The position numbers and the translations under genes were made by a program. Under the pieces are notes generated by a model, which was given only the letters and a program-made list of their open reading frames with translations, searched no databases and was not told the DNA's origin. This document shows, in pieces, positions 3,326 through 62,094 of a stretch of 64,000 nucleotides of DNA (positions within the stretch are counted from its first letter, which is position 1; each line of letters starts with the position of its first letter). Source of the DNA: Pseudomonas sp. ML96 (GTDB lineage Bacteria > Pseudomonadota > Gammaproteobacteria > Pseudomonadales > Pseudomonadaceae); the NCBI RefSeq assembly GCF_000761545.1, contig NZ_JPMY01000012.1, positions 124,001 to 188,000 on the forward strand. The letters are read 5' to 3'.

Positions 3326-3376
3326 GGCGGCATCTCCCTTGAGAGTCGGGGCGAAAGGCCCCTTTGCCATTCCTGT

Positions 3377-3394: not shown

Positions 3395-3432
3395 AAAAAT
3401 AATCATGTAAATCATGATCTTATAAACACGGA

Positions 3433-3489: not shown

Positions 3490-3560
3490 CACAACGCTGG
3501 CATAACCCACGCCCCTGCTGGCAGCATGCAGCGACACGGACAGACCAACGGAACCGCAGG

Positions 3561-4139
3561 ATGCCCAGCCTTCCCACTCTCACCACCGCGCGCCTGACCC
3601 TACGCCCGCTGCAGCTGGACGACGCGCCGGCCATCCAGGCGCTGTTCCCGCAGTGGGAGATCGTCCGCTACCTGGCCGACCGCGTGCCTTGGCCCTACCC
3701 TGCCGACGGCGCGCTGAGCTTCATGCGCGACGTGTCGCTGCCGGCCATGCGCGAGGGCCGCGAGTGGCACTGGAGCATCCGCCTGACGGCGCAGCCGCAA
3801 GTGCTGATCGGCGTGATCAGCCTCAGCAACGAGCCGGACAACAACCGCGGCTTCTGGCTCGACCCACGCCACCAGCGCCAGGGCCTGATGCAGGAAGCCT
3901 GCGCGGCGGCCACCGCCTACTGGTTCGAGGTGCTGCAACGCCCTGTGCTGCGCGCGCCCAAGGCAGTGCCCAACATCGCCTCCAGCCGTATCTCCGAACG
4001 CGGCGGCATGCGTTTATTGGGGGTAGTCGAGAAGGACTACGTCAGCGGGCGCCTGCCCTCCGAGCTGTGGGAAATAACCCGCGAGGAATGGCTGAGGCTG
4101 AACGCCACGGGGAACCCGGAGAACGAATCCGCACCCTAA
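3561..4139 (+). CDS. GNAT acetyltransferase (RimJ/RimL type)
   Basis: A 192-residue soluble protein starting LPTLTTARLTLRPLQLDDA, the classic opening of the Acetyltransf_3 (RimJ/RimL-like) group. The acetyl-CoA loop is around residues 108-118 (DPRHQRQGLMQEA, standing in for the Q/R-x-x-G-x-A motif), and a later Asn-x-Ala-Ser-x-R-x-x-E-R-GG-M block (NIASSRISERGGMRLLG) is typical for the group. It would transfer an acetyl group to an N-terminal or side-chain amine; the acceptor is unknown. The ribosome site is weak (GCAGG). It is followed after 29 bases by a small acidic gene and may be co-transcribed with it. Confidence 0.85.
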   Translation: MPSLPTLTTARLTLRPLQLDDAPAIQALFPQWEIVRYLADRVPWPYPADGALSFMRDVSLPAMREGREWHWSIRLTAQPQVLIGVISLSNEPDNNRGFWLDPRHQRQGLMQEACAAATAYWFEVLQRPVLRAPKAVPNIASSRISERGGMRLLGVVEKDYVSGRLPSELWEITREEWLRLNATGNPENESAP

Positions 4140-4168
4140 TTCGAGGTAGCCATTCGAGAGGCCCGAGC

Positions 4169-4306
4169 ATGGCCGACGACGAAACTCCGAACAGCGACAA
4201 CGACGACACCGAGCAGGAGCTGCCGGAAGAGGTGCTGGAGAACCTCGAAGAGGTCGCGCCCCTGCCCGCCCCGGTGCCCGAACCAGGCCCGCTACTACCC
4301 CGCTAA
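4169..4306 (+). CDS. Small acidic Pro-rich protein
   Basis: A 45-residue ORF, MADDETPNSDNDDTEQELPE..., with GAGAGG about 8 bases before the ATG. It is strongly acidic in the first 30 residues and ends in a Pro-rich tail (APLPAPVPEPGPLLPR). No membrane segment, cysteine or motif is seen; it is likely disordered. It follows the GNAT gene closely. The ribosome site and biased composition support it being real, but I recognise no family. Confidence 0.5.
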   Translation: MADDETPNSDNDDTEQELPEEVLENLEEVAPLPAPVPEPGPLLPR

Positions 4307-4527
4307 CCACTGCGTAACCCGCATGGCAGCTGGGTTGCCGCTGCGCTAGGTCGACCAGCGGTAGCCCCGTTCGTCCCTCCTCCCCTGAATCGAACGGCCC
4401 TGGTGCCGATAATCCGCTCGCGTGCCGAATCGCTGATTGCTGTCAGCGGCCCCTCGCGAGCGGAGACTCGATGCCGCCTGGATTCGCCCCTTTGCGTGGG
4501 CGCTGTTTGACGAATTCCGGGACCACC

Positions 4528-6483
<1,956 letters not shown>

Positions 6484-6590
6484 GCGGCGCGGCAGATGAG
6501 CCAGTTTCGCCGCAGAAACTGGCTTCGCCGCGGTCGCCTCGCAGCGCCAACGGACCTAGAATGAGCGCCTTTACTCAAGGAGATACCACC

Positions 6591-6872
6591 ATGCCCCGCG
6601 CATCCGCCCGCCACATCCTGGTTGCCAGCGAAGCCAAGTGCAACGAACTGAAAGCCGCCATCGAAGGTGGCGCCGATTTCGCCCAGGTCGCCAAGGAAAA
6701 CTCCACCTGCCCGTCCAGCCGTGACGGCGGCAACCTCGGCTCCTTCGGCCCTGGCCAGATGGTCCGCGAGTTCGACCAGGTGGTGTTCAGCGCCCCGGTC
6801 GGCGTGGTTCAGGGCCCGGTGAAGACCCAGTTCGGCTACCACCTGGTGGAAGTCACCGAGCGCAAGGACTGA
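6591..6872 (+). CDS. ppiC: Parvulin-type peptidyl-prolyl isomerase PpiC
   Basis: A 93-residue single-domain parvulin. It starts at 6591 after a strong AAGGAGA site. The sequence ASARHILVASEAKCNELK opens the rotamase fold, and the motifs CPSSRDGGNLGSFGPGQMV and VKTQFGYHLVEV are diagnostic of PpiC/parvulin. It catalyses cis-trans isomerisation at X-Pro bonds in the cytosol; there is no signal peptide. Length matches E. coli PpiC (93 residues). It stands alone between the FtsH-like gene and a hairpin. Confidence 0.95.
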   Translation: MPRASARHILVASEAKCNELKAAIEGGADFAQVAKENSTCPSSRDGGNLGSFGPGQMVREFDQVVFSAPVGVVQGPVKTQFGYHLVEVTERKD

Positions 6873-6880
6873 TCCCTGCC

Positions 6881-6904
6881 GCCCGGCCTTCTGCCAGGCC
6901 GGGC
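6881..6904 (+). terminator. Terminator-like hairpin after ppiC
   Basis: A perfect 9-base stem GCCCGGCCT / AGGCCGGGC with a 6-base loop starts 9 bases after the ppiC stop. The downstream tract is AAATTGT rather than a T run, so termination efficiency is uncertain. Confidence 0.5.
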
Positions 6905-6972
6905 AAATTGTGGGAGCGTTCTGCCACCGCCGGCGGTCTTCAACTTATGAAGCCGCCGCGGAGGATGCTCCC

Positions 6973-7758
6973 ATGCCAGCCCGTTCCCCCCTCCTGCTCG
7001 CTCTGCTGATTGCCGCGAGCGCCCATGCTGCCGAACCCCTCGACAGCGCCGGGCAGATCACCGATGACCGTTACCACGCCGTGTTCGCCGGCGACTGGCG
7101 CTCGGCCGAGAATCGCCTGCGCGACCCTGGCCGGCGGCCGCAGGAGACCCTGCGCTTCTTCGATCTCTCCGCCAGCCAGACGGTGATCGAGATCAGCCCA
7201 GGCGACGGCTGGTACAGCGAGCTACTCGCACCCCTGCTGCGCGACAAGGGCGAGTACCGCGTGGCCCTGGCCAGCGGCGGCGACGCACCGCTGCGCGACA
7301 AGCTGGCCAAGGGTGGCCAACCCTATGACCGGGTGAAGATCATCGACTTCGACAGCAAGACCCCGGTGCTGGGCGAGAAGCAGTCGGTCGACCTGGTATT
7401 GAGCTTCGACGATGCCCAGGACTGGGCCAGCACCGGCAACGAGATCGCCATGTACGAGGCCGCCTACCAGGTGCTCAAGCCTGGCGGCAAATTCGGCGTG
7501 GTGGCCTACCGCGCGGAAAGCGGCGCCAAGCCCGAGGCCGCCGAGCAGACCGGCTACCTGCCCACCGACCATGTGGTGCAGAAGGCCAAGGACGCCGGCT
7601 TCGTGCTCGCCACCCTGGAGCAGATGCACAGCAACCCGCGTGACGACCGCGATCGCCCGGCGCAACAGCCCGGCCAGGAGAAGGCCAGCTACCAGGAAGT
7701 CGGCGAGCCGGACCGCATGACCCTGCTGTTCGTCAAACCGAGCGGGCCGCGCCCCTGA
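6973..7758 (+). CDS. Exported class I methyltransferase-like protein
   Basis: From the ATG at 6973 (GGAGG site upstream) the product is 261 residues. It begins with a signal peptide (MPARSPLLLALLIAASAHAA, cleavage after AHA). A methyltransferase fold follows: motif I VIEISPGDGWYSELLAPLL near residues 70-90 and the post-core LKPGGKFGVVAYR near 165. Exported proteins of this type occur in many proteobacteria, where their substrate is unknown; SAM is not expected in the periplasm, so either the fold has been recruited for another role or the protein is retained. No catalytic residue can be assigned. The next gene follows after 60 bases on the same strand. Confidence 0.75.
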   Translation: MPARSPLLLALLIAASAHAAEPLDSAGQITDDRYHAVFAGDWRSAENRLRDPGRRPQETLRFFDLSASQTVIEISPGDGWYSELLAPLLRDKGEYRVALASGGDAPLRDKLAKGGQPYDRVKIIDFDSKTPVLGEKQSVDLVLSFDDAQDWASTGNEIAMYEAAYQVLKPGGKFGVVAYRAESGAKPEAAEQTGYLPTDHVVQKAKDAGFVLATLEQMHSNPRDDRDRPAQQPGQEKASYQEVGEPDRMTLLFVKPSGPRP

Positions 7759-7818
7759 GGCTTGCTTTTCCGCACGGGGTGGGGACACTGCGCAGCTGAC
7801 TTATTCAGGAAGCCCCGC

Positions 7819-8181
7819 ATGGACCGCGTCGCAGCCCCACCCCGCTCGAAACTCCGTATCGTCCTCGCCATCCTTTTCCTCCTTGCCGCCGCCGGCCTGG
7901 CCTATGGTGGCTGGCTCGTTCTACCGGGCTTCCGTCCGCTGTTCGACAGCTTCGGCGATGACATTCCCTGGCTCAGCCGCTGGGCGGTCGAGCACCCGCA
8001 GGGCGTGTGGAACTCGCTACGCGGCCTGCTGTTCCTGTACCTCATCGCGCTCTGCGCCTGGTTGTTCATCCGCCGGCGCTGGGCCGCGACGGCGCTGAGC
8101 CTGGCCACCACCTGCACCTGGCTGGCCCTGATGCTGCTATTGGTCGCGCTCTACCTGCCGACGCTGACCATCGCCGTCTGA
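7819..8181 (+). CDS. Small inner-membrane protein, unknown
   Basis: The ATG at 7819 has AGGAAG 7 bases upstream and gives 120 residues. Three hydrophobic segments can be seen: LRIVLAILFLLAAAGLAYGG near the N-terminus, LRGLLFLYLIALCAWLFI in the middle, and the C-terminal SLATTCTWLALMLLLVALYL. Between the first two is a short periplasmic-looking loop with Pro and Trp residues. I recognise no family; the gene sits alone before the YebC-family gene. Confidence 0.65.
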   Translation: MDRVAAPPRSKLRIVLAILFLLAAAGLAYGGWLVLPGFRPLFDSFGDDIPWLSRWAVEHPQGVWNSLRGLLFLYLIALCAWLFIRRRWAATALSLATTCTWLALMLLLVALYLPTLTIAV

Positions 8182-8262
8182 AAGCTAAGTCGTTAGAATC
8201 ACCTCCCTCAGTTCGCCCCGCCATGCGGGGCTCCGTCAGACGTAACCCGCGAGAACTCCGTC

Positions 8263-8964
8263 ATGGGCGCACAGTGGAAAGCCAAACCTAAAGAAGCCGC
8301 AGCCAACGCCAGGGGCAAAATTTTCGGTCGCCTGGTCAAGGAGATCATGGTCGCCGCCCGTAACGGCGCCGATCCGGATACCAACGCCAAACTGCGCGTC
8401 GCCGTCCACGCGGCCAAGAAAGCCTCGATGCCCAAGGACACCCTGGAGCGCGCAATCAAGAAAGGCGCCGGCCTGCTGGGCGAGACAGTCAACTTCGAAC
8501 GCACCACCTACGAAGGCTTCGCCCCGCACCAGGTGCCGGTGATCGTCGAGTGCCTGACCGACAACCTGAACCGCACCGTAGCGGAAATCCGCGTGCTGTT
8601 CCGCAAGGGCCAGATGGGCGCTTCCGGTTCGGTGACCTGGGACTTCAGCCACGTCGGCATGATCGAAGCCTCCACCGACAGCGGCGCCGACCCTGAGCTG
8701 GCCGCCATCGAAGCCGGTGCCCAAGACTTCGAGCCGGCTGAAGAAGGCGACACCCTGTTCATCACCGAGATGACCGACCTCGACGCCGTGTGCAAGGCTC
8801 TGCCGGAGCAGGGTTTCACCGTCAACTCGGCGAAGATCGGCTACATCCCGAAGAACCCGGTGAGCGGCCTGAGCGACGCGCAGATGGAAGAAGTCGAAGC
8901 CTTCCTCGAAGCCCTCGACAACCACGACGACGTGCAGAACGTCTACGTCGGCCTCGCTGGCTAA
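8263..8964 (+). CDS. YebC/PmpR family protein (YeeN-like)
   Basis: A 233-residue protein of the TACO1/YebC family. It opens [20 protein letters not shown], the YeeN-type variant of the usual MAGHSKWANIK start, and continues with [17 protein letters not shown] and [16 protein letters not shown], conserved throughout the family. Members were annotated as transcription regulators and recent work on the family links them to translation of difficult (proline-rich) sequences. The usual ruvC-neighbour copy (pmpR) would be elsewhere; this is the second paralogue. It is followed 9 bases later by a small ORF and a Nudix gene, probably one transcript. Confidence 0.9.
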
Positions 8965-8973
8965 TCGCCGCGC

Positions 8974-9162
8974 GTGAGCCGCAGCCAGTTCCACCAGCAA
9001 CATGCCGCACGCGCCGAGGCCGAAGCCCGGCGCCTGCTGGATGAGCGCGCCAGCCTCGGCGCGCGCTGGCTGGACTGGGTGGCCGCCGAGCTGTACCGCC
9101 TCTCCCCGCCCGAATACGCGGCCATGGTGCGCCGCGAACTGCAACGCCTGAACGACCAATGA
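8974..9162 (+). CDS. Small hypothetical helical protein coupled to a Nudix gene
   Basis: A 62-residue ORF starting at GTG 8974, rich in Arg, Ala and Glu and predicted all-helical (QHAARAEAEARRLLDERASL, then a Trp/Leu-rich helix). Its stop overlaps the start of the Nudix gene (ATGA), so the two are translationally coupled. No known domain is seen. Conservation of the pair would be the best test of function. Confidence 0.6.
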   Translation: MSRSQFHQQHAARAEAEARRLLDERASLGARWLDWVAAELYRLSPPEYAAMVRRELQRLNDQ

Positions 9163-9563
9163 AACTACTGCGCATCGCCGCCGTCTGCCTGATCGACGAC
9201 GCCGGCCGCCTGCTGCTGGTGCGCAAGCGCGCCACCCGCGCCTTCATGCTCCCCGGTGGCAAGATCGAGGCAGAAGAAACGCCCCTCGCCGCCCTGCGCC
9301 GCGAACTGCAGGAAGAACTGCAGCTGAGCCTCGACGAGGCCGCACTCACCCCGCTCGGCCGCTTCCGCGCGCCGGCCGCCAACGAGGCCGATACCGAGAT
9401 CGACGCCCAGGTCTATCGCGCCCGCCTGCCCCACCCCGTCAGCCCCGCCGCCGAGCTGGAAGAGCTGCGCTGGCACCCGCTGGATGCCGCTGCCAGCGCC
9501 GACCTGGCGCCGCTGCTGCAGCTGCACGTGCTACCTGCCCTGCGCCACCCGACGCCTGCCTGA
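9159..9563 (+). CDS. Nudix hydrolase
   Basis: A 134-residue protein with the Nudix box at about residues 36-58: GGKIEAEETPLAALRRELQE then EL, matching G-x5-E-x7-R-E-U-x-E-E-x-G-U except that the final Gly is Gln. The core opening (AAVCLIDDAGRLLLVRKR) and PGGK before the box are typical. It would hydrolyse a nucleoside diphosphate linked to another group, as MutT-like enzymes do, using divalent metal held by the box glutamates. The substrate is not evident. It is coupled to the 62-residue gene upstream. Confidence 0.9.
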   Translation: MKLLRIAAVCLIDDAGRLLLVRKRATRAFMLPGGKIEAEETPLAALRRELQEELQLSLDEAALTPLGRFRAPAANEADTEIDAQVYRARLPHPVSPAAELEELRWHPLDAAASADLAPLLQLHVLPALRHPTPA

Positions 9564-9607
9564 GCCGCCGACGCCGTTCGCGGCTATGCTCAAAGCATCA
9601 CAGCATG

Positions 9608-9664
9608 CAGGCTGGCTCAGCCTGGGAGGTGGAGATGACCGTCGACCCTATCCGTTCGCACTGA
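9608..9664 (+). other. Hairpin plus 9-codon mini-ORF with strong ribosome site (possible leader)
   Basis: A hairpin (CAGGCT-N5-AGCCTG, 9608-9624) is followed by GGGAGGTGGAG and ATG at 9635, encoding only MTVDPIRSH before TGA at 9664. The next gene starts 25 bases later. The strong Shine-Dalgarno on such a short frame suggests a leader peptide or a decoy ribosome site for the following small gene. This is speculative. Confidence 0.25.
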
Positions 9665-9689
9665 GTCTCCCATTACCGAGGATTTCGCC

Positions 9690-9821
9690 ATGAGCAAAGG
9701 TCTGGATAGACACAAGGAGGCGAAGAAGAAGCCTCTGAAGAGCGCCCAGGAAAAACGCCTGGCCAAGCGCACCAAGAAGTCCGGTTCCACCCTGCTGGGT
9801 AGCCACGCTCCCTCCAGTTAA
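9690..9821 (+). CDS. Small Lys-rich basic protein
   Basis: A 43-residue ORF (MSKGLDRHKEAKKKPLKSAQ...) with GAGG upstream and a perfect terminator hairpin 21 bases after its stop. The first 32 residues are highly basic and helical, which suits RNA or DNA binding; the tail is Ser/Gly-rich. Small lysine-rich proteins with this start occur across Pseudomonas, but I know of no assigned function. Confidence 0.65.
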   Translation: MSKGLDRHKEAKKKPLKSAQEKRLAKRTKKSGSTLLGSHAPSS

Positions 9822-9842
9822 CAACACCCGTTGACCCCTCCC

Positions 9843-9872
9843 GCACCCGGCTCATGCCGGGTGCTTCGTTTC
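9843..9872 (+). terminator. Rho-independent terminator
   Basis: A perfect 9-base stem GCACCCGGC / GCCGGGTGC with a TCAT loop (9843-9864) is followed by TTCGTTTCT. It ends the transcript of the small basic protein. Confidence 0.75.
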
Positions 9873-9938
9873 TGCCCGTCGCAGAACATGGTCTGGCCAG
9901 GCGCCAGTACCCATTCGTCCATAACCGAGCGCAGCGCT

Positions 9939-9964
9939 GAACTTCCCGAGACAGACGGGTCGGA
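9939..9964 (+). promoter_or_regulatory. AlgU/sigma-E-like promoter before the alginate lyase (weak)
   Basis: A perfect -35 GAACTT (9939-9944) is followed after 15 bases by TCGGA (9960-9964). AlgU promoters read GAACTT-N16/17-TCTGA, so the spacing is one short and the -10 has one mismatch. An inverted repeat GGTCGG-AACC-CCGACC (9958-9973) overlaps the -10 and could be an operator. Confidence 0.35.
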
Positions 9965-9999
9965 ACCCCGACCGCTTCGTTTGCCGCAAGGAGGACCCG

Positions 10000-10698
10000 A
10001 TGCTCGACCTGACCACCTGGAACCTGACCATCCCCACCACCGAATCCGCCACGCTGATCACCACCCAGCGCCTGAACAAGGGCTATAGCAGCCAGTACTT
10101 CCGCCCGCAAAACGACCGCAGCGTGCGCTTCTGGGTGCCGGTCAACGGCTCGCACACGGCCAACTCGAGCTACCCGCGCAGCGAGCTGCGCGAGACCTGG
10201 CCCAACGGCGAGCTGCGCAACTGGTACCACGGCGATGCCGACAACCTGCTCAGCGCGGTGCTGACGGTCAATCAGGTGCCGAGCAAGAACAAGCTGGTGA
10301 TCGGCCAGATCCACAGCATCAACCGCCCCGGAGACGTCGGCGAGCCGCTGGTCAAGCTGCAGTACCACTACCGCCCCGAGCTCAACAGCGGGCGCATCGA
10401 GGCTCTGGTGCGCAAGCATCCGGACGATGCCAAGGTGCAGAACATCGCCCTGGTCGACGACGTCACGCTGAACGAGCGCTTCGCCTACCGCCTGCGCCTG
10501 ACCGCCAGCGGCCGCCTGGGCATCACCGTGTACAGCGACGACGACAACGGCGCCTTCTACCGCCAGGTCGCCTCCAGCTGGAGCCGCCAGCCGCTCTACT
10601 TCAAGGCCGGCGCCTACGCCCAGGACAACTACGGCAGCAGCGCCGAGGGCGGCCGCGCGACCTTCTATCACCTCAATACCGAGCATCGGCGGCCCTGA
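10000..10698 (+). CDS. Polysaccharide lyase family 7 alginate lyase, no signal peptide
   Basis: A 232-residue PL7 protein with all three family blocks: SSYPRSELRET (catalytic Arg and Glu-Leu), GQIHSI (catalytic Gln and His) and YFKAGAYAQDNYG (YFKAG-x-Y-x-Q, catalytic Tyr). It cleaves alginate between uronate residues by beta-elimination. It starts at 10000 after AAGGAGG with MLDLTTWNLTIPT, and no signal peptide is present in any start choice, so it should be cytosolic or released by other means, like the compact PL7 enzyme PA1167 of P. aeruginosa. It is separated from the alginate biosynthesis genes (not in the window), but the AlgU operon that controls alginate lies 21 kb away. Confidence 0.92.
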   Translation: MLDLTTWNLTIPTTESATLITTQRLNKGYSSQYFRPQNDRSVRFWVPVNGSHTANSSYPRSELRETWPNGELRNWYHGDADNLLSAVLTVNQVPSKNKLVIGQIHSINRPGDVGEPLVKLQYHYRPELNSGRIEALVRKHPDDAKVQNIALVDDVTLNERFAYRLRLTASGRLGITVYSDDDNGAFYRQVASSWSRQPLYFKAGAYAQDNYGSSAEGGRATFYHLNTEHRRP

Positions 10699-51952: not shown

Positions 51953-52669
51953 TCAGGGGCAGATCATGCGCCCGCCACTCTCGCACTGGTCGTCGTCCAC
52001 TGCCGCGCTCTGCATACGCACCGTCGCCTCTGCGGAGACCACGTAGCCACGCCGACTGCGACAAACATCACCATAGTTGGCGCTGGTGTTCCGCGAAACC
52101 TCGCGGAAACTAGCCGGATCCTTGTTGGCATTGTTGCGATCGACGAATTTCGAGGTCGAGCTCAGCAGATAGTCGACCATCGGCACGATCAGCTTCATGC
52201 AGTACTGCACCCGGATCTTCAGCAGATTGGCGTCCTGAATCGACACAGGGCTTTGCTGCATGGGGCGGTACATCAGATTGTCGTTGGGAATCGCATCATA
52301 AGCCTCACCGTCACCCAGAGGGTCCTCCTGCTCTTCTGCCCAGGCATTGAAGGCTGCGCTGTCAGGGTTAATCCGCGTGATCAGGACGTAGTTGTCGACT
52401 TCCTCGGCGGTATGCTCCAGACGCTCGTCCTCATCCTGGTACTGGGAGAACATCGGATACATGCCACGCAGCAGGCCACGCCGCATGTCGGCGTACTGCG
52501 CGTTATTCATGGCCCCGATACGGGCAGCCTGGAAGGTGGCGTAGTTCAGGCCGGTCTTGGCTGAATAGATGAAGGCTGCCTGCACCGCTCCGAAGATCAG
52601 CAGGATCAGCACCGGGATGATGATGAGGAATTCCGTCATCGCCTGTGCCTGCTGGGTGCGCAGCCTCAT
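51953..52669 (-). CDS. TadE-like pseudopilin
   Basis: I chose ATG 52669 (238 residues; AGGA 8 bases upstream), one base after the stop of the TPR gene. The N-terminus QQAQAMTEFLIIIPVLILLI is a TadE/Flp-type signal with Glu at +5 after the cleavage position, then a hydrophobic helix. The mature part is polar with several paired cysteines near the C-terminus. It is the last gene of the tad operon and is probably processed by a prepilin peptidase encoded outside the window. Confidence 0.82.
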   Translation of the reverse strand: MRLRTQQAQAMTEFLIIIPVLILLIFGAVQAAFIYSAKTGLNYATFQAARIGAMNNAQYADMRRGLLRGMYPMFSQYQDEDERLEHTAEEVDNYVLITRINPDSAAFNAWAEEQEDPLGDGEAYDAIPNDNLMYRPMQQSPVSIQDANLLKIRVQYCMKLIVPMVDYLLSSTSKFVDRNNANKDPASFREVSRNTSANYGDVCRSRRGYVVSAEATVRMQSAAVDDDQCESGGRMICP

Positions 52670-52670
52670 C

Positions 52671-53123
52671 TCAGGGTTCCTGCCCAGTAGCCTGGCCATG
52701 ATTTTCCATCACATCGAGCAGGCGCTCACCCAGCCCCAGCGCCCGGTCGGCCTGAGGCTGCTGAGGACTCAGGGTCTTCTGCATCTCGCCGGCGGTGAAC
52801 AGTGCCTCGCGTAGTTGCACCTGCAACAGGTTGTGCCAGGCACGTGCATGCTGGGGATCGCGCAACAGTGCTTCACGGTAGCTTTCGATGGCGGCCTGTA
52901 CATCACCTTGGCGGGCCAGGCTGTTGCCGAGCTGGTAACGCACACCGGCATCGTTGGGCATGGCCTTGGCCAAGCGACGGTACTGATCGGCTGCACGCTC
53001 AAAGTCACCGGCGGCGTAATCGCGGTTGGCCGAGTTCTGCAACTCGACCAGGTTGGATGCCGGCATCAGGCCCGCACAGCCCGATAGCAACAGACTGGCC
53101 AGGGCGAGACTCAGGATTCGCAT
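52671..53123 (-). CDS. TPR lipoprotein, TadD-like
   Basis: A 150-residue protein with a lipoprotein signal (LALASLLLSGC, Cys at residue 16) and TPR repeats (GDFERAADQYRRLAKAMPND and GDVQAAIESYREALLRDPQH). TadD-type lipoproteins help assemble the outer-membrane secretin. Position between DUF192 and the TadE-like gene supports that. It overlaps DUF192 by 13 bases. Confidence 0.82.
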   Translation of the reverse strand: MRILSLALASLLLSGCAGLMPASNLVELQNSANRDYAAGDFERAADQYRRLAKAMPNDAGVRYQLGNSLARQGDVQAAIESYREALLRDPQHARAWHNLLQVQLREALFTAGEMQKTLSPQQPQADRALGLGERLLDVMENHGQATGQEP

Positions 53124-53461
53124 TTGAGGCTATCTCCAGATTCTATGTTCAGACGCCGGCATTCACCGGCAGCCAGTTCGATCACACTGTGAGCGCGCCA
53201 GCAGGCGCTGAAGCGCCAGGGCTTCAGATTGTGCCGTATCTGCACGATGCGCCGCTCGGCGTCCAGGTAGAGCACGTCGATGGCAAAGCGCATGAAGCAG
53301 CAGTGCACCGAATTACACGGGCTGATCCACAACCCTTGTGCAGCCGCCAAGCCGCTGCGCCCGAGCAAGCCACGCAGACGCGTCCAGGGCGTGGCAGCCC
53401 GCTCCAGCAGTAGCGGCGTGGGTTCGCGCCCCGCGCCTTGATGGATGATCTGAGCGTTCAT
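53111..53461 (-). CDS. DUF192 family protein embedded in the tad operon
   Basis: A 116-residue protein with the DUF192 blocks TRLRGLLGRSGL and NSVHCCFMRFAIDVLYLD, followed by VQIRHNLKPWR. No signal peptide is visible from this start. It overlaps tadC by 4 bases and the TPR gene by 13, so it is fully built into the operon. DUF192 genes occur in some tad loci of other proteobacteria; no role is known. Confidence 0.82.
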   Translation of the reverse strand: MNAQIIHQGAGREPTPLLLERAATPWTRLRGLLGRSGLAAAQGLWISPCNSVHCCFMRFAIDVLYLDAERRIVQIRHNLKPWRFSACWRAHSVIELAAGECRRLNIESGDSLKCES

Positions 53462-54336
53462 GACTGGCCCATGAACTTGACCACAATGGGGAACAGCAGA
53501 ATCACGAAGGTCAGTGGGAAGATGAACATGATCAGCGGGATGATCAGCTTCACCGGCGCCTGCATGGCAGTCTTCTCGGCACGCTGGAAACGCTCCTCGA
53601 GGCGCTGCTCCGCCTGGATCTTCAGGGTATTGCGCAGGCTGCTACCCATCTTCTCGGCCTGGATCACCGAGCGCACGAAAGTGGTCAGGTCCTTGAGATT
53701 GACCCGTTCCTCCATGCGCTGCAGTGCTTCCGAGCGCGGCAGGCCGGAACGAATGTCACGCAGAACGATGCGGAATTCGTTCTTCATCGCCCCGTTCGGC
53801 CCCTTGTCCACCGCCTGCTGCAAGGCGCCGAGGAAGTTCAGGCCGGCATCCACGCACATGGTCAGGTATTCGAGGAATACCGGCAGGTTACGCACAATGT
53901 CACGGTCACGGCGCTTGTGCGTATCGCTGATCCACATCACCGGCAGGACCGCGCCCATGAGCATCATCACCAGCAGGACCGACCAGATGATGCCACTCTT
54001 GCCGGTCGCCATCGGCAACGCGGCCGCCAGCGGGAAGAGCACGGCCAGCGTGATGCACAGGGCGAGGAAGTCTTCGGCTGTCAGCACGTAGAGCGCGCCG
54101 GTCTTCTGCAGCTTCTGGTCGAGCCGATCCATGTGTTGCGGTGCAATGTTGCTACACACGAAATGGCTGACCATGCGCACCAGCGGCCAGATCGGCCTGA
54201 CCCAGCCAGGCACGGGGTCCATGTAGGCGCGGTTCTCGTCCGGCAGCAGGGACAGCAGCCAGACGAAGATCAGCAACGTGCTGGTGACAGCGATGCCCAA
54301 GCCGGCGCTGCTGAGAAGGGCAAGTAGTTCAGTCAT
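53458..54336 (-). CDS. tadC: Tad pilus inner-membrane platform protein TadC
   Basis: A 292-residue protein of the type II secretion F family with membrane segments at the N-terminus (LGIAVTSTLLIFVWLLSLLP), the middle (two adjacent helices, LCITLAVLFPLAAALPMA and IIWSVLLVMMLMGAVLPVMW) and the C-terminus (LIIPLIMFIFPLTFVILLFP). With TadB it forms the platform for the ATPase TadA. It overlaps tadB by 4 bases and DUF192 by 4. Confidence 0.9.
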   Translation of the reverse strand: MTELLALLSSAGLGIAVTSTLLIFVWLLSLLPDENRAYMDPVPGWVRPIWPLVRMVSHFVCSNIAPQHMDRLDQKLQKTGALYVLTAEDFLALCITLAVLFPLAAALPMATGKSGIIWSVLLVMMLMGAVLPVMWISDTHKRRDRDIVRNLPVFLEYLTMCVDAGLNFLGALQQAVDKGPNGAMKNEFRIVLRDIRSGLPRSEALQRMEERVNLKDLTTFVRSVIQAEKMGSSLRNTLKIQAEQRLEERFQRAEKTAMQAPVKLIIPLIMFIFPLTFVILLFPIVVKFMGQS

Positions 54337-55190
54337 GCATCGATCCGGGTAATTCGCTTGATGGACATGAAGCCGAGCACTTCCATCACCACCATCACCG
54401 TAAGCACCATCAGGCCGTTGCGGGTGGTGTAGAGCTGGCTCATGGCCTCAGGTTCGATGGCGCTGAGAATGCCGGCGAGAAACACTGGCAGCAGCGCCAT
54501 GAACGTACCCTGGGCGCGGCCCTGGGCAGTCAGGCTATCGATCTTGCCCTCCATCACGCGCTTGCGTCGCAGCATGGCGGCCATACCGTTGATGGTTTCG
54601 ACCAGGTTGCCACCGACCTCCCGGCTGATGCGGATGGCCGAGCTGGCCATGATGAAAGATGGCAGTGGAATGCGCTTCTCCAGCTTGAGCAGGGCATCCT
54701 CCAGGGTCACGCCGAGGCGGATGTTCTTGATCAGCAGACCGAACTCCTGGGACAACGGCGCAGGCGACTGCTGCACCACGTTCTCCAGCGCCATGCTCAG
54801 GCTGGCCCCGGACTGCAGGCTGCCGGATAGCAGCATGAAGGCGTCGGGGAGCTGCTCCTCGAACTTCAGCAGGCGCTTCTTGTTCATCTGCTTGAGCACC
54901 ATGCGCGGCACGAACAGCGCGACTATCGCCCCCACGATCGTCACCACGAGGATCTGGAACAGCGCATGCAGCAGCAACGGCACCAAGATCATGATCATCA
55001 GGTTGAGCACGAACACCTTGCGCCCGTTGGCGAAGATGAACATGTCGGCCATTTCGAGCTCTGCGTTGCGCGAAAACTGCCGCTTGTAGAAGACGAAGAA
55101 ATCCGAGACCCGGTCGGCCAGCAGCACAGCGGCAATGCCGACTGCTGCGCCAAGCGCGGCGATGCATCCGAGCAGCAGGAGCTCACTCAT
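54333..55190 (-). CDS. tadB: Tad pilus inner-membrane platform protein TadB
   Basis: A 285-residue T2SSF-family protein. Membrane helices at the N-terminus (LLGCIAALGAAVGIAAVLLA) and two in the middle precede the conserved cytosolic block RLLKFEEQLPDAFMLLSGSL, then QSGASLSMALENVVQQ and SREVGGNLVETINGMAA. It pairs with TadC. It overlaps tadA by 4 bases. Confidence 0.9.
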   Translation of the reverse strand: MSELLLLGCIAALGAAVGIAAVLLADRVSDFFVFYKRQFSRNAELEMADMFIFANGRKVFVLNLMIMILVPLLLHALFQILVVTIVGAIVALFVPRMVLKQMNKKRLLKFEEQLPDAFMLLSGSLQSGASLSMALENVVQQSPAPLSQEFGLLIKNIRLGVTLEDALLKLEKRIPLPSFIMASSAIRISREVGGNLVETINGMAAMLRRKRVMEGKIDSLTAQGRAQGTFMALLPVFLAGILSAIEPEAMSQLYTTRNGLMVLTVMVVMEVLGFMSIKRITRIDA

Positions 55191-56839
55191 AGCTCCGCAC
55201 TCGCCTGGAAGATACCCAGGTTCACCGGAATGCCGCGCTTAGCCAGGGCCTCATAGAACTCCGGAACCTGCCCGGTTGCCTGGAAGTGCCCTTTGACCCG
55301 GCCGTTCTCGTCGAAGCCGGTCTGCTGGAAGCGGAAGATCTCGTTGAGCTGGATGGTGCTCTGCTCCATCCCGGTGATCTCGCTGATGCTGGTAATGCGC
55401 CGCGAACCATCGCCGAAGCGCGTCTGCTGCACGATCAATTGCACCGCCGAGGCGATCTGTTCACGAATGGCCTGAACCGGCAGGTCCATACCGGCCATCA
55501 GCACCATGACCTCGAGACGCCGCAGCATGTCGCGCGGGCTGTTGGCGTGGCCGGTGGTCAGAGAGCCATCGTGACCGGTGTTCATCGCCTGGAGCATATC
55601 CAGCGCCTCACCGCCCCGGCACTCGCCGACCACGATGCGGTCCGGGCGCATACGCAGGCAGTTACGCACCAGATCACGAATGGTCACCTGGCCCTTGCCC
55701 TCCATGTTGGCCGGGCGCGCCTCCAGCGATACCACGTGCGGCTGCACCAGCTTCAGCTCGGCGGCATCCTCCACCGTGACCACGCGCTCGGCCACCGGAA
55801 TGAAGTTGGAGAGGATATTGAGCAGAGTGGTCTTGCCCGAGCCAGTACCACCAGACACCACGATGTTCAGACGCTGCTCCACGGCGGTACGAAGGAACTC
55901 GACCATCTGTGGATTGATGGTGCCGAAGCCCAGCAGGTCATCGGTGGTCAGCTTCTTGTCGGAGAACTTACGAATGGTCAGGCATGGCCCGCGCAGCGCC
56001 AGCGGTGGAATGATGGCATTGACGCGCGAGCCATCCTTCAGGCGCGCATCGACCATCGGCGAACTCTCGTCGATACGCCGACCGAGAGGCGAGATGATCC
56101 GCTCGATGGTCGACAACACAGCGGCATTGCAGCTGAAGTTGATTGGCGTCTTCTCCAGGCGACCGGAGCGCTCTACGTAAATATCGTCATGGGCGTTGAC
56201 CATGATCTCGCTGACCGTTCTGTCGGCGATCAGGTCTTCCAGCGGGCCGAGGCCAATGGCCTCGTCCAGCACGATCTTGCGCAGCGTCTCGGTATTCAGC
56301 GTTGGCAGGCGGCCACCGACCTGCTGGAGGATCTCGTCGATCAGCCCGGACAGCGTGGTGCGGACCTGATCGTGATCCATGCTGTCGAGGTTCATCCGCC
56401 GCAGGTCGAGCGCGCGGAACAGCTCGCCCTGGATGAACTGTGCCCACTCCATGTAGGCATGGTTGAGATCAGGCTCTTCCTGCAACTCGACGCAGTCTTC
56501 CGCGCCTACCGGAGCGAGGCTTTCCGGCTCGTCACTGGTCTGCGGATGCAGGGCACGCACTCGCACCAGGTAGCCACCAATGGCGATGGCATCCTCCGGC
56601 GTCAGCGGGCCATGCCGCGAGACCGCGCGATCATTGACGTAGACCTCGTAGCCACGACTGACGTCTTCGACGAACAGCCCGGCCAGCGAATGCTCGATAC
56701 GCGCATGCACCGGCGCGACTTTCCAACCGCGCAGGCGAATCAGACCAGAGCGGGCCCGCCCTAGCTCGCAGTAGGCGCTGGCGCAGGTCAGCTTCTCTAG
56801 CGGCTTGCCATCGCGATAGGTGACTTCGATCTCGAACAT
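55187..56839 (-). CDS. tadA: Tad secretion ATPase TadA (CpaF) with N-terminal FHA domain
   Basis: A 550-residue ATPase. Residues about 1-98 form a forkhead-associated domain (ELGRARSGLIRLRGWKVAPV, then HARIEHSLAGLFVEDVSRG), normally absent from TadA. The CpaF ATPase follows: Walker A SGGTGSGKTTLL (329-340), Asp/His boxes and Walker B RPDRIVVGECRGGEALDM, with an Arg-finger block (SRRITSISEITGMEQ). It powers pilin assembly or secretion. The FHA domain would let the motor recognise a phosphothreonine partner, and a kinase-FHA cluster lies at 14-18 kb. Confidence 0.92.
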   Translation of the reverse strand: MFEIEVTYRDGKPLEKLTCASAYCELGRARSGLIRLRGWKVAPVHARIEHSLAGLFVEDVSRGYEVYVNDRAVSRHGPLTPEDAIAIGGYLVRVRALHPQTSDEPESLAPVGAEDCVELQEEPDLNHAYMEWAQFIQGELFRALDLRRMNLDSMDHDQVRTTLSGLIDEILQQVGGRLPTLNTETLRKIVLDEAIGLGPLEDLIADRTVSEIMVNAHDDIYVERSGRLEKTPINFSCNAAVLSTIERIISPLGRRIDESSPMVDARLKDGSRVNAIIPPLALRGPCLTIRKFSDKKLTTDDLLGFGTINPQMVEFLRTAVEQRLNIVVSGGTGSGKTTLLNILSNFIPVAERVVTVEDAAELKLVQPHVVSLEARPANMEGKGQVTIRDLVRNCLRMRPDRIVVGECRGGEALDMLQAMNTGHDGSLTTGHANSPRDMLRRLEVMVLMAGMDLPVQAIREQIASAVQLIVQQTRFGDGSRRITSISEITGMEQSTIQLNEIFRFQQTGFDENGRVKGHFQATGQVPEFYEALAKRGIPVNLGIFQASAEL

Positions 56840-56846
56840 GGCGGCC

Positions 56847-58307
56847 TCAGTCGATCAGCTCGATGGCCCCGGCACTCTGCCGATAGCGCTCGATCATTTT
56901 GTCCTGGCGCTTGAGCTCCTGGGCGCTCACCGAGTCCGGTGCCTCAGTTAGCAGACGCGGAGTGATGAAGATCACCAGTTCGGTACGATTGCCCTTGAAG
57001 CTCTTGTTGTGGAACAGGGTTCCGATCACAGGTAGATCCTTCAACCAGACCAGACCTTCGCGGGAAGTCTGGCTGTCTTCGGTGACTAGGCCAGAGAGCA
57101 CCAGGGTCTCGCCAACGCGCAGTTGCACGTCGTTTTCCGTGCGGCGGGTCTTGAACGCCGGGTACTCGCCGACCTGGTTGGCCTTGTCGAGCTGGCTGAT
57201 CTCAGCCTGCACCTTGGTCGCGACCTGGTCGCTGCCGTACAGCTTGGGCTCGATGTTGAGCAGGATGCCGAAGTCCTTGTACTCCACCGACGGGCCGCTG
57301 ATGCTGCTGGTCACCACCGGCACCTCGCCACCGACAGTCAGTTGCGCCTTGCCACCACTGCGCGCAGACAGGCGCGGCGAAGCCAAAGTCAGCGCCGAGC
57401 CGTTCTTCTCCAGCAGGTTGATACGCGAAGTCAGCTCACTGGCGATACCCCAATAGCCTTGCCAGCCGTCGATAGTCTGGACACTGCCACCATCGGCACC
57501 AAAGCCTACATATGGACCGTCAATACTGGTGCTCCAGTTGACACCCAGCTCCTCGACATCATCTTTGGCGAACTCGGTGATGCGCACGTCGAAATACACC
57601 ATCGGCGCATCGTATTCGGAGGTCAGCTGAGCCAGCACTAGCACGTCCGGATAGCTTTTCTGCACCAGTTCGATGCGATTGATGTCGACCTGATCGAGGC
57701 TGCCGTCGATGACGATCTGCCGCCCTACGGCCTTGATGCTGATGCCGGGAATCTTGCCGAGCATGGCCTGCACTTCGCTCAGCACTTCGCTAGCGTCTGA
57801 CTTGGCTGCCGCTCCAGTCTGCTCCTCGGCCAGCACGATGACGTTGTCACCGTAGGGTTTGACCGCATCCTTGATCTGCACCAGTTGCTCGGCACTGACG
57901 CGACCATCGATCACCACCTGACGACCCACGGTCCGGATGCGTGCTCCAGGAATGCCGGACAGCATGGCGCGCAGCTCCGGCATCTGGCGATAGCCATTGC
58001 CTTTGGCGACAACCACGCTCATCTGCTCACGACTGCCATCCTCGAACCAGACGTGCACGGTGGTCTCGCCATCCTGCTGGGCGGTAAGCACGACCTCTTC
58101 GTTCTTCAGCATGGTCGCGCTGATCAGGTCGACATTACCGACCGCCACACGCTCGACACCCGGCGCCTTGAGAACACGCACATCGCCGTCGTACAACACC
58201 AGCGAGGTGGGAAGTACGGTGGCCTGCGCCGAAAGGCTCAGGCACAGGATTGCCAGCATTCCTACTAGAGATCGCATCTTGTTTTGCCCTGGTTTGGTCT
58301 TGCTCAT
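56847..58307 (-). CDS. rcpA: Outer-membrane secretin RcpA/CpaC
   Basis: A 486-residue protein (in-frame ATG at 58277 is an alternative start) with a signal peptide (SLVGMLAILCLSLSAQA), an N-terminal secretin domain (VLKAPGVERVAVGNVDLI), two BON-like repeats each containing VGRQVVIDG/VGRQIVIDG, and the secretin core (GGEVPVV, then LVLSGLV and TELVIFITPRL). It forms the outer-membrane ring for the pilus. TadA starts 7 bases after its stop. Confidence 0.92.
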   Translation of the reverse strand: MSKTKPGQNKMRSLVGMLAILCLSLSAQATVLPTSLVLYDGDVRVLKAPGVERVAVGNVDLISATMLKNEEVVLTAQQDGETTVHVWFEDGSREQMSVVVAKGNGYRQMPELRAMLSGIPGARIRTVGRQVVIDGRVSAEQLVQIKDAVKPYGDNVIVLAEEQTGAAAKSDASEVLSEVQAMLGKIPGISIKAVGRQIVIDGSLDQVDINRIELVQKSYPDVLVLAQLTSEYDAPMVYFDVRITEFAKDDVEELGVNWSTSIDGPYVGFGADGGSVQTIDGWQGYWGIASELTSRINLLEKNGSALTLASPRLSARSGGKAQLTVGGEVPVVTSSISGPSVEYKDFGILLNIEPKLYGSDQVATKVQAEISQLDKANQVGEYPAFKTRRTENDVQLRVGETLVLSGLVTEDSQTSREGLVWLKDLPVIGTLFHNKSFKGNRTELVIFITPRLLTEAPDSVSAQELKRQDKMIERYRQSAGAIELID

Positions 58308-58398: not shown

Positions 58399-60297
58399 CT
58401 ACTCCAGGCGTAGCGTCTGTATCGGCAGAACCCCCTGTTTGCCGGTACCGCCCGGGATAAACTGAATGGTGCGAGTGCTTTCGCGGCGAGCAGTGGTAGA
58501 CGGCACATCGCGCGGGGTTTCCACCCCGACGCTGACGCCGCGAGCGAGCACGTTGCCGTTGCCATCCACCACCTTGCCGTCGACCACCTTGCCGATGGCC
58601 TTGCCGTCGGTGCCATACAGGGTGTCGCCACGCACGTTGCCGAGCACCTTGCCCGATGCATCACGCACGACCTGCTGGACATCCTTGCGCAGGCCGACCT
58701 CGGCATTGGCGTTGAGATTGCCGGCCATGTCGTAGACCTTGCCGTCACGCACGGTGCCGACCTTGCGCCCCTGGCTGTCGATCACGTCGTTGCCGACCAC
58801 AGTGCCGATGGCGTTGCCGTTGGCATCGCGCACCACCAGCACTGCATCAGCCATCGGCTTGCCATCGCTACCAAGCACGGCCTGCTCGACCTTGCCCAGC
58901 ACCTTGCCGTCACTGCCGACGGCCACGCCATCCTTGATGGTGCCGAGCACCTTGCCATCGGCGCCGATCACTTTGCCGTCCACCACTCGGCCAAGTACCT
59001 TGCCGCTGGCATCGCGGACGATCTCGCCCCGCGTACCGATCACATTGCCCTGGGCATCGACCAGCTTGCCGTTGACCAGCTTGCCGCTGATATCGGCTCC
59101 GGCCCCCTGCACCTGCGAAGCACTCATGTCGATCACCCGGCCACTGGAGTCGAGCGCGGCATTCTTCTCCACCCGCCCCAGCTCCTTGCCGTCCAGGCCT
59201 ACGGCCTTGCCGTCCTGATAGGAGCCGATGACATTGCCCTTGGCATCGACCACCTTGCCATCGACCACCTTGCCGATCACATTGCCCTCGGCGTCACGCA
59301 CCACGGTGGCGCGGTCACGCATGCGCAGCAGCGGATCGTCGGCTGACAGACCGCGCACGATGCGGCCCATGACCTTGCCGTCGAGACCGACGGCCTGGCC
59401 GTCGACGATATGGCCGATGATGCGGCCATTCATGTCCACCACGTTGTCACCAACGATGCGCCCTAGCACTTTGCCGTCAGCATCGAGCACGACATCGACC
59501 GTTTCCGCAGGCAGTGGGTCCAACAGGCTGGACACAGTGACCTGCCCCAACTCAGCAGCGCTGCTGTCCTTGGGGTGGCGCAATACGGCAACCAGCTCGC
59601 CGGCCTTCTCGGCCAGCTCCACGCGTGCTACCTGTGCCGGCGTGAGCATCAGCGACAGGGTCGAGAAGTTCATGTTGAAGCCGTCAGGCGTGCTGCGGTC
59701 GTAGAAGTTCTCGTACTTGCGGCCCTTGGCATCCTCGCGACCGGCAGCGAGCACCTCGACGTCCTGCAGCACGTTGATGACCACCTCGTCCGAGTAGTTG
59801 AGCTGCTCCTGCAGGCCGATGTCGGTAGAGGAGAAGGTACCGAGCAGGTCGATGCGGTCGCCAGGGCGCAACATGCCATCGAACGAATTGATCTTGCTGA
59901 CCTTCACCGTCTTCACGCGCTTGCCCAGCTCGACGTTCTCCGAGAAGCGCGACACGCCGTCCTGCTCCACCGACTCCCAGGTAATCGGCCGGCCCTTCTG
60001 CAGGGCCTGAACGGTCATGCGGTTCTCCAGCTTCGGCCAGTCATCGGACATAACCACGTTCGAGGGCAGGTAGTCACTCGGCACATCCATCACCGCGACG
60101 TTCTCTGGCGTCAGCGACTGAGCCTTGTCGATATCGACCTTGGGCACGATCACCGAGACCATCACCTGGGCGGCCGGCTGGTACGCCGCCCGGTACTGGG
60201 ACTCCTTGGCCTTCAGATACAGCCAACCGAGCAGCGCAGCGAGCACCCCGCAAGCGATGGCAATGATCAGTAGTTTTTTCCCCGAAACAGCTGACAT
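58399..60297 (-). CDS. cpaB: CpaB/RcpC pilus assembly protein with long repeat extension
   Basis: I chose ATG 60297 (632 residues; GGGGA 6 bases upstream). An N-terminal membrane helix (LLIIAIACGVLAALLGWLYL) is followed by a SAF domain (about 45-115) and the RcpC/CpaB domain (about 120-260; ELGKRVKTVKVSKINSFDGM, then LRPGDRIDLLGTFS). CpaB proteins are usually about 280-320 residues and end here. This one continues with about 17 imperfect repeats of about 16 residues (about 267-584), consensus D-x-x-G-[NK]-V-[IL]-G-x-V-x-D-G, then a Thr/Arg-rich tail. The extension is periplasmic or passes through the secretin. Confidence 0.9.
   Translation of the reverse strand: MSAVSGKKLLIIAIACGVLAALLGWLYLKAKESQYRAAYQPAAQVMVSVIVPKVDIDKAQSLTPENVAVMDVPSDYLPSNVVMSDDWPKLENRMTVQALQKGRPITWESVEQDGVSRFSENVELGKRVKTVKVSKINSFDGMLRPGDRIDLLGTFSSTDIGLQEQLNYSDEVVINVLQDVEVLAAGREDAKGRKYENFYDRSTPDGFNMNFSTLSLMLTPAQVARVELAEKAGELVAVLRHPKDSSAAELGQVTVSSLLDPLPAETVDVVLDADGKVLGRIVGDNVVDMNGRIIGHIVDGQAVGLDGKVMGRIVRGLSADDPLLRMRDRATVVRDAEGNVIGKVVDGKVVDAKGNVIGSYQDGKAVGLDGKELGRVEKNAALDSSGRVIDMSASQVQGAGADISGKLVNGKLVDAQGNVIGTRGEIVRDASGKVLGRVVDGKVIGADGKVLGTIKDGVAVGSDGKVLGKVEQAVLGSDGKPMADAVLVVRDANGNAIGTVVGNDVIDSQGRKVGTVRDGKVYDMAGNLNANAEVGLRKDVQQVVRDASGKVLGNVRGDTLYGTDGKAIGKVVDGKVVDGNGNVLARGVSVGVETPRDVPSTTARRESTRTIQFIPGGTGKQGVLPIQTLRLE
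58546..59499 (-). repeat. Coding repeats of the CpaB extension
   Basis: About 17 tandem units of roughly 48 bases within the cpaB frame. Example units: GLDGKVMGRIVRG, DAEGNVIGKVVDGKVV, DAKGNVIGSYQDGKAV, GADGKVLGTIKDGVAV, DASGKVLGRVVDGKVI. Units alternate between D- and G-initiated versions, giving a higher-order period. They are too diverged at base level for recent expansion alone. Confidence 0.88.
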
Positions 60298-60394: not shown

Positions 60395-61426
60395 TTATTT
60401 GGTCAACGTCCAGTAGCTCAAAGCCGGATCGTAGGTGTACGTCACCGTGCTACCGCCTCCGCAATTGCCACTGGTGGCGCCATTGATGAAGCCGCCCACG
60501 CCATCACTGGTAAGGCGGATGGATGGGTCGTTGAATTTGTCCACAAGGCTCTTGTTCACTACTGGATCGAGCACTGCACCGCTGGCGATGTTGCTGTTCC
60601 AACCGCCAGGCATCACCAGACACGGCGAGTAGCCGGTCCAGTTGCTGTTCGGGGCGTTGACGAACTTCACCGTCACCAGCTCCGTACCCTCGCTGCCCAC
60701 TGCGGTGCCGATTGGGGAGGAAAGCGTGCTCTTCAGCGAGTAGAGACTGCCACCCAGCTCGTAGCCGGCGGTCTGTGGTGCACCCTTGCCGTCGAGTTCC
60801 ACCACTCTGCGCATCGGCAGGGCGGTATATCCGGTTGGCTGCGGATCGAGCAGCTTGCGCTGGTCTGCCGAGTAGTATTTGTTCTTGTACAGATAGGCAA
60901 AGCCGCGAACCTGACCACCCGAGGTCAGCGCCATCAACGGCAGCTCGTTACCGTTCTCGTCGACCCACTGGCGCGTGCTCGACGCACCGCCATAAATGAT
61001 GTTGCCGTTCTCGTCGACAAACACGCAGTCGCCAGACTGGGTACGCTGGCACCAGGCGAGAATGTTGCCGGCGCCATCCATCAGCATGTCGCCATCCATT
61101 CGACCCAACTGATTGCCGTCCGCGTCGTAGACCCACTCGATAGACGGCAGCTGAGAGGCGGCATCGGGTAGCGGCGTATTATCTGTCGGTGGCGTGTCAC
61201 CATCGTCGTAGTCGTCTTCCTCGCTATCGTTCTCGTTGAAGCGCACCTTGGTGTTGTTGTAGAGCTGCACCTTGTTCATTTCGCTGGACTGGGTGCGGTA
61301 GCCACGCTGCACGTTGTCGAACAACTTGGTGACATCGGTGGTGGAAGCCAGCAGCGCCGCGCCGGTGACACCGAGCACCACCATGTACTCGGTCATCGAC
61401 TGGCCCAACTGACGAATGCGGTTCAT
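60395..61426 (-). CDS. Large prepilin-like protein with D-x-x-G-N repeats
   Basis: A 343-residue protein whose N-terminus (MNRIRQLGQSMTEYMVVLGV) has a type IV/Flp-like signal: basic leader, Gly-Gln-Ser then M-T-E-Y, hydrophobic helix to about residue 28. An acidic linker (DSEEDDYDDGDTPPTD) leads to repeats like those of CpaB (DADGNQLGRMDGDMLMDGAG near 101-120, then DENGNIIYGG, DENGNEL). The C-terminal half is Ser/Gly/Thr-rich with two Cys. It could be a major or minor pilin, or a secreted adhesin anchored by its helix. Its ATG overlaps the previous stop. Confidence 0.72.
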   Translation of the reverse strand: MNRIRQLGQSMTEYMVVLGVTGAALLASTTDVTKLFDNVQRGYRTQSSEMNKVQLYNNTKVRFNENDSEEDDYDDGDTPPTDNTPLPDAASQLPSIEWVYDADGNQLGRMDGDMLMDGAGNILAWCQRTQSGDCVFVDENGNIIYGGASSTRQWVDENGNELPLMALTSGGQVRGFAYLYKNKYYSADQRKLLDPQPTGYTALPMRRVVELDGKGAPQTAGYELGGSLYSLKSTLSSPIGTAVGSEGTELVTVKFVNAPNSNWTGYSPCLVMPGGWNSNIASGAVLDPVVNKSLVDKFNDPSIRLTSDGVGGFINGATSGNCGGGSTVTYTYDPALSYWTLTK

Positions 61427-62094
61427 CAGCGGTCCATCCTGTTGACCAGAATCTGCGTGCGACCATCAGCACGGATCAAGCCGACGGTCATCAACTCGCG
61501 GCCCTTGGCATAACTGAGAACGAAAGCGTTGCCCTGGTTACTGCGCCCCTCGGCCACCCAGCCCTGGCGGACCAGCTCGGCTTCGTACCAGGCACGAGTG
61601 GCCTCCAGATCATCCTCGCCCAGCAGGAGCACCATGCGCCCTTCACGAATATCGTCGTCACTGCGCATATCGCTGATGACCTGCGCGCCTGGCGGCACCG
61701 GCATGCCCAGGCCCAGTGGCTGATCACCAGCGCCGTTGGCTGGCGGGTTGGTCAGCAGCATGCGGCCGTAGCTGAAACGCTCGTTCTGTGCCTTGACCTG
61801 AACCATCATCATGCAGCGACTGTTGATGTGCAGAATCTGGTCCCAACCATCGAACTGGGTGAAGTCCACAGCCTCCTGCCATTCGTCCGCGTAGAACGCC
61901 TTGACCTGCTCCAGAGTGGCAGCAACGCGAAAACCACGCCCGTTCATGGCCGCATGGTTCCACTGCACGTTGTCGCCTAGCGAACTGACCAGCATGCCGT
62001 CCATGCGCGGAAAATCGTCGTAGTCGCAGTCGGCCTGGGCACTGAAGCAGGCCAGGAGCAATGCGGCGGGTAGGAGTCGGGAAGGTATGTTCAT
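61426..62094 (-). CDS. Exported protein of the tad operon, unknown
   Basis: A 222-residue protein with a signal peptide (RLLPAALLLACFSAQA). The mature part begins DCDYDDFPRMDGMLVSSLGD, then a folded domain with VQVKAQNERFSYGRMLLTN and QILVNRMDR at the end. No motif is recognised. Position and coupling (ATGA with the TadE/G-like gene, TGATG with the next) show it is part of the operon. Periplasmic or surface. Confidence 0.75.
   Translation of the reverse strand: MNIPSRLLPAALLLACFSAQADCDYDDFPRMDGMLVSSLGDNVQWNHAAMNGRGFRVAATLEQVKAFYADEWQEAVDFTQFDGWDQILHINSRCMMMVQVKAQNERFSYGRMLLTNPPANGAGDQPLGLGMPVPPGAQVISDMRSDDDIREGRMVLLLGEDDLEATRAWYEAELVRQGWVAEGRSNQGNAFVLSYAKGRELMTVGLIRADGRTQILVNRMDR

Follow-up and report, generated by a model that had tools for sequence, protein, structure and literature searches.

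What occupies the extra length of a CpaB/RcpC protein that is about twice the usual size, and what might it do in a Tad pilus machine? The question is raised by a window of 64,000 nucleotides from Pseudomonas sp. ML96 (the whole stretch of DNA analysed here), in which an initial annotation based on the letters and their open reading frames had singled out a CpaB enlarged by short repeats. CpaB/RcpC and the β-flower fold are themselves already known; what is new is a β-flower array inside the CpaB of one branch of Pseudomonas. In the literature on the β-flower and its Pfam accessions no link to Tad was found, and the initial view that no such CpaB had been described agrees with the literature consulted, in which no CpaB with such an array was found. 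As background, CpaB/RcpC builds the ring by which Tad pili are guided through the cell envelope. RcpC has an N-terminal transmembrane anchor and forms a dodecameric ring that binds the secretin; in Pseudomonas aeruginosa, its L3 linker is required for oligomerization to the dodecamer, and its C-terminal hairpin, which has been modelled as completing a sheet of the N-domain of the secretin RcpA, is essential for Tad function (PMC12307814).

The CpaB frame and its core

The gene had been placed exactly, as a frame of 632 codons, and its core is identified as CpaB by TIGR03177 and PF16976. The parts of the protein are as follows.

58399–60297, minus strand: cpaB/rcpC gene with inserted β-flower array, 632 aa (ATG at 60297, stop at 58399)
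60184–60282, minus strand: N-terminal helix, residues 6–38, inner-membrane anchor (helix in the AlphaFold2 model; hydrophobic N-terminal stretch)
59950–60165, minus strand: D1, SAF-like domain, residues ~45–116 (PF08666 match at 53–114)
59569–59949, minus strand: D2, RcpC domain, residues ~117–243 (PF16976; Foldseek match to 9gzr)
59512–59568, minus strand: L3 linker, residues ~244–262, VTVSSLLD (alignment with T(I/L)xNL(L/V)D in canonical CpaB)
58522–59508, minus strand: β-flower array, residues ~264–592, 19 D-x-x-G-type hairpins in about five groups (Pfam, AlphaFold2, motif counts)
58402–58479, minus strand: C-terminal hairpin, residues ~607–632, predicted secretin-binding element, IQFIPGGTGKQGVLPIQTLRLE (conservation; alignment to the terminal strand of canonical CpaB)

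The ATG is the start point of the homologues, and a start further upstream, at a TTG (60309), is mechanical. A frame error, a gene fusion artefact and a wrong start were ruled out, as the layout recurs in 12 homologues from other genomes. At one cpaB locus (L035, genome G416), a TAG lies inside one matched stretch, yet the 687-aa frame is open. The TIGR03177 equivalog is matched over residues 13–255 (E 2e-34; 118.9 bits against a cut-off of 71) and PF16976 over residues 121–244 (E 1e-15; 58 bits against 28.8). The SAF family PF08666 reaches 20.9 bits against a cut-off of 21 (E 5e-4) in the window protein and 33 bits (9e-8) in a homologue, L027. With an alignment of the 13 homologues as input, AlphaFold2 gave an isolated model with a pTM of 0.46, in which the core is poorer than the array and pLDDT is low in much of D1. 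The best PDB match of this model by Foldseek is RcpC (9gzr; E 1.7e-6, core ~19 % identical). RcpC was also the only match of the whole model in the PDB, as is expected if no β-flower structure has been solved. Foldseek of the whole model against BFVD gave only low-probability matches, to long repetitive proteins, and PDB sequence searches with the single sequence and with a profile gave nothing useful.

Thus far the protein resembles the RcpC/CpaB of the alignment complex (9gzr; PMC12307814), with which it shares the N-terminal helix, SAF-like D1, RcpC D2, L3 and C-terminal strand or hairpin, as well as a gene beside the secretin in a tad locus. It differs in carrying an array of ~330 residues between L3 and the hairpin, which roughly doubles its length; the usual CpaB/RcpC has ~250–390 aa, a customary range that is not a family-model criterion.

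An insertion between L3 and the C-terminal hairpin

The extra residues had been taken for an extension past the end of CpaB, on the premise that homologues end near residue 260. That premise does not hold, since many canonical CpaB proteins of the same order continue beyond the core, where a short linker, in many cases rich in proline, leads to a terminal strand (for example, FEIIAGG, IEFIIGGQ, RGIEFIIGGQ or FELIRGG), and the window protein keeps this terminal element at residues ~607–632. When the array is cut out, both flanks align, VTVSSLLD with ATIDNLLD and RTIQFIPGG with RGIEFIIGG. Because L3 before it and the hairpin after it can both be aligned with canonical CpaB, the array is, as read from the alignment, an internal insertion between L3 and the conserved C-terminal hairpin. 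Across the 13 homologues, mean pairwise identity is 0.76 in the hairpin as against 0.24 in the 14-residue tail that precedes it; in the isolated AlphaFold2 model, pLDDT of the hairpin is <50. As the retained hairpin is the element modelled as docking on the secretin N-domain, the array would be placed in the periplasm, between the ring and the secretin.

The repeats as a β-flower array

About 17 short repeats had been reported initially; the repeats are genuine, and the count was slightly low, as a second motif count gives 19 units with a spacing of 15–16 residues. Most of the 19 hairpin motifs are D-x-x-G and several are G-x-D-G, and strand breaks in the AlphaFold2 model coincide with them. 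The first pattern scan gave 20 matches in the array, including a spurious one at residue 339, and none in the core; over 2000 shuffles the mean was 2.3 and the maximum 7. Self-identity peaks at lags of 16, 31–32, 47 and 62–63. The repeats are therefore far above chance. A recent tandem expansion of the DNA by slippage was ruled out, since at the DNA level TRF found only short, 15-bp two-copy tandem matches.

Three Pfam families match the array above their cut-offs, namely PF21785 (1e-23; 83.8 bits against a gathering cut-off of 38), PF21784 (9e-23; 81.3 bits against 25) and PF12396 (DUF3659; 5e-10). PF21784 and PF21785 originate from Durairaj et al. 2023, in which the β-flower is a shallow β-barrel whose loops are longer on one face and short on the opposite one, and whose hairpin tips carry [DNEQ]xxG (PMC10584680). 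Over residues 271–590, AlphaFold2 predicts β-meanders with a block pLDDT of ~62–87 rather than disorder, which bears out the initial expectation of a β-rich extra part; the unit is also conserved in the 13 homologues. In each predicted unit, a strand of about six residues is followed by a DxxG(N/K) loop and a second strand, after which a tight DG turn leads into a shorter strand, and the alternation of long DxxGN loops with short DG turns corresponds to the long-loop/short-loop pattern of the β-flower. The strand order in the model would fit a closed shallow barrel of 8, 10 or 12 strands. The array contains 44 Lys and Arg and 44 Asp and Glu residues, and neither Phe nor Trp. Hence the array shares with the described β-flower its D-x-x-G tips, its alternating long and short turns and its above-cut-off scores; in contrast, the latter is a single small domain, whereas the array comprises about five hairpin groups within a subunit of a pilus machine (PMC10584680).

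Distribution, origin and selection

The layout is kept in 13 Pseudomonas proteins of 632–687 aa. Within the genus, 11 of 399 sampled genomes (species) match at E ≤ 1e-30; carriers named in a scan of genome contigs, which in part are the same or nearly the same as members of that set of 11, include P. dryadis, P. alcaligenes MB-090714, P. guryensis and Pseudomonas sp. TTU2014-080ASC. The 150 CpaB frames among the matches listed in a survey of the whole phylum Proteobacteria all have 252–393 aa, so that the 632-aa protein is indeed approximately doubled, as first noted; weaker matches were left unlisted in that survey, and a longer, divergent CpaB could be missed by it. In 24 syntenic tad loci from other families of the same order, located via TadA or CpaB, CpaB has 253–338 aa and the array is absent, and tblastn against plasmids gave only weak core-type CpaB matches of ~25 % identity. 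A tree of the core joins the 13 array proteins in one clade, with support of 100/100 and a long branch. The array thus has a single origin inside Pseudomonas.

Since then, it has been conserved under purifying selection. Array length is near-constant in 11 of the 13 homologues, and hairpin positions are conserved; in the window species and its nearest relative, two hairpins present in the other homologues are absent, with the frame intact. Based on five pairs, dN/dS is 0.09–0.37 in the array and 0–0.15 in the core, the array exceeding the core in all five. One pair of loci, L002 and L033 (cpaB of G012 and G361), has a core dS of 0.07 with no amino-acid change and an array dS of 0.43, as if the array had been recombined or exchanged separately from the core.

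The slot pilin encoded next to cpaB

Directly upstream of cpaB is a pilin-like gene, the slot pilin, with a domain of related appearance.

60395–61426, minus strand: slot pilin-like gene, 343 aa, with pilin N-terminus, acidic linker and β-flower-like domain
60737–61144, minus strand: β-flower-like domain of the slot pilin, residues ~95–230 (hairpin meander in the AlphaFold2 model)

Residues 95–230 are modelled with a block pLDDT of ~72–92. The slot pilin has 324–364 aa in 13 of 13 aligned array loci; across these its hairpin motifs are conserved, and two D-x-x-G tips are invariant. For each of the five members scanned, the PF21784 match falls short of the cut-off (E 2.6e-4 to 0.039; 16.6 bits in the window member and 21.8 in the best member, against 25), and the domain is for that reason termed β-flower-like only. 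Foldseek of the slot pilin gave nothing significant. Among the 24 related loci, a pilin-like ORF was recognized in the slot at 12, with 51–91 aa (an inner start being counted in L080), and none of these 12 ORFs has a β-flower-like domain. The inserted array and the β-flower-like slot pilin are confined to the same clade, and neither occurs in the 24 related loci. As the clade has a single origin, their co-occurrence amounts to one event and not to a repeated association. An ordinary major Flp pilin of 85 aa is encoded further upstream (L045, 5085–5342).

Proposed role of the array and its rivals

We lean towards a reading in which the array, as part of the alignment complex, is a folded bridge in the periplasm and acts together with the slot pilin; this reading is given somewhat better than even credence. 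The array is inserted between the ring-forming part (D1, D2 and L3) and the hairpin that would reach the outer-membrane secretin; if the stoichiometry of RcpC applies, a ring of ~12 subunits would bear ~12 arrays. These may together build a folded bridge or cage in the periplasm, from ring to secretin, which would stand in for the short flexible linker of an ordinary CpaB. The β-flower-like pilin might meet this cage during priming or passage of the pilus. There is little room for such a structure to be straight, since the RcpA–RcpC model already covers 21 of the 24 nm of the periplasm (PMC12307814). A straight rod of five modules would consequently be too long, and the arrays would have to be folded back or wrapped round, or else take the place of some of the usual contact. 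A comparable problem, that of connecting the CpaB ring in the inner membrane to the secretin in the outer membrane, arises for CpaI in Caulobacter; CpaI, however, is a separate protein (PMC13170226), whereas here the additional mass belongs to CpaB itself.

Rather than a spacer, the array might be an anchor, its β-flowers binding peptidoglycan, lipid or some other envelope ligand and so fixing the Tad machine. β-flowers are similar to the Tubby domain, which belongs to a family of phosphoinositide binders or lipid scramblases, and cell-wall binding is the annotation given to some of them (PMC10584680); moreover, CpaD and CpaI of Caulobacter have been placed at the peptidoglycan and proposed to fix the Tad machine (PMC13170226). 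However, this array is charge-balanced and lacks Phe and Trp, unlike the flower tipped with lysine and phenylalanine of Durairaj et al., and it matches no known binding family, so that anchoring appears unlikely. A role mainly as a gate or lid, with the slot-pilin domain contacting the array and the secretin channel opening only when the minor pilin is loaded, is rated lower again, as quite improbable. It draws on the β-flower features of both neighbours in the same clade, found at 0 of the 24 related loci, and on the proposal by Evans et al. that the hairpin region of RcpC may form a closed lid (PMC12307814). The contact between array and pilin is nonetheless putative, the slot pilin falls under the PF21784 cut-off, and the changes in array and pilin may merely share a lineage.

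That the array is a tolerated expansion with no specific role would accord with the two hairpins missing, frame kept, from the window species and its closest relative and with the faster evolution of the array relative to the core; the low dN/dS and the confident fold prediction, together with a length that hardly varies in 11 of 13 homologues and hairpins kept in conserved positions, argue against it strongly enough that we give it little credence. Least credible is that the repeats thread into the secretin as a solenoid or as a sheet of the RHS/YD or MORN type. DxxG repeats do resemble RHS units, and the RHS family PF05593 matches the DotG arrays described below, but in Pfam searches CpaB had no match to PF05593 (not at E ≤ 1) or to MORN families. 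The solenoid envisaged by the initial annotation is thus not favoured, since the sequence matches, above the Pfam cut-offs, two β-flower families, which are small meander barrels. Its alternative of a part threaded through the secretin fares no better, as it is at odds with the retention of the C-terminal hairpin, which docks on the secretin N-domain in the RcpC model.

β-flower arrays in type IVB secretion

A bridge of this kind may not be peculiar to Tad systems. DotG joins the inner and outer membrane parts of its apparatus, as CpaB does with its secretin. In 274 gammaproteobacteria, a search for β-flowers gave few matches, and among these were two DotG/IcmE-type proteins, L059 346–2631 (minus strand) and L063 1–2268 (minus strand), that consist of an N-terminal helix, a β-flower array and a TrbI domain; their arrays match PF21785 at 2e-40 and 2e-37, respectively, and a third, seemingly incomplete case is found in L062. 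These proteins are unrelated to CpaB, and the array lies between the helix and the TrbI domain; what they have in common with the window CpaB is a β-flower array within a protein that joins inner and outer membrane complexes. A rumen MAG (L029) has two adjacent giant ORFs with β-flower repeats (3365–6673 and 6675–10640, plus strand). The array protein matches PF21785 at 2e-64, the next ORF combines an array with a VirB10-like end, and the neighbouring genes are, by eye, IcmL- and DotH-like.

A broader conjecture is that β-flower arrays have been recruited repeatedly as periplasmic bridges, in Tad CpaB and in type IVB DotG, and that the ring arrays here contact a β-flower minor pilin and thereby couple priming to secretin opening; taken as a whole, it is speculative, and we incline to doubt it. 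The DotG arrays by themselves suggest a more general use of the fold. The β-flower owes its name to predicted structures and, to our knowledge, no role has been assigned to it. It is now found within a machine whose structure and assays are known, flanked by the ring-forming part and the predicted secretin-binding hairpin, which offers a first testable job for the fold; the β-flower-like domain confined to the adjoining pilin of the same clade provides a second test. Additionally, Tad machines of different species vary in how their inner and outer parts are connected, and the array is a candidate for a built-in bridge.

Other genes of the tad locus

The locus also contains the following genes.

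56847–58307, minus strand: RcpA/CpaC secretin (PF00263, 5e-37; PF13629, 1e-11)
55187–56839, minus strand: TadA ATPase with N-terminal FHA domain (PF00437, 2e-64; PF00498, 1e-5)
53458–55190, minus strand: TadB and TadC platform proteins (PF00482 in both)
51953–53461, minus strand: DUF192 protein, TadD-like TPR protein and TadE-like protein

Many loci of the order have full-length TadA relatives that are similar in size. The DUF192 gene (53111–53461, minus strand) lies within the tad operon, as it does in three of four related loci examined. At 61426–62094 (minus strand), a 222-aa protein with no Pfam match is encoded, and it has relatives at the same position in most of the related tad loci examined.
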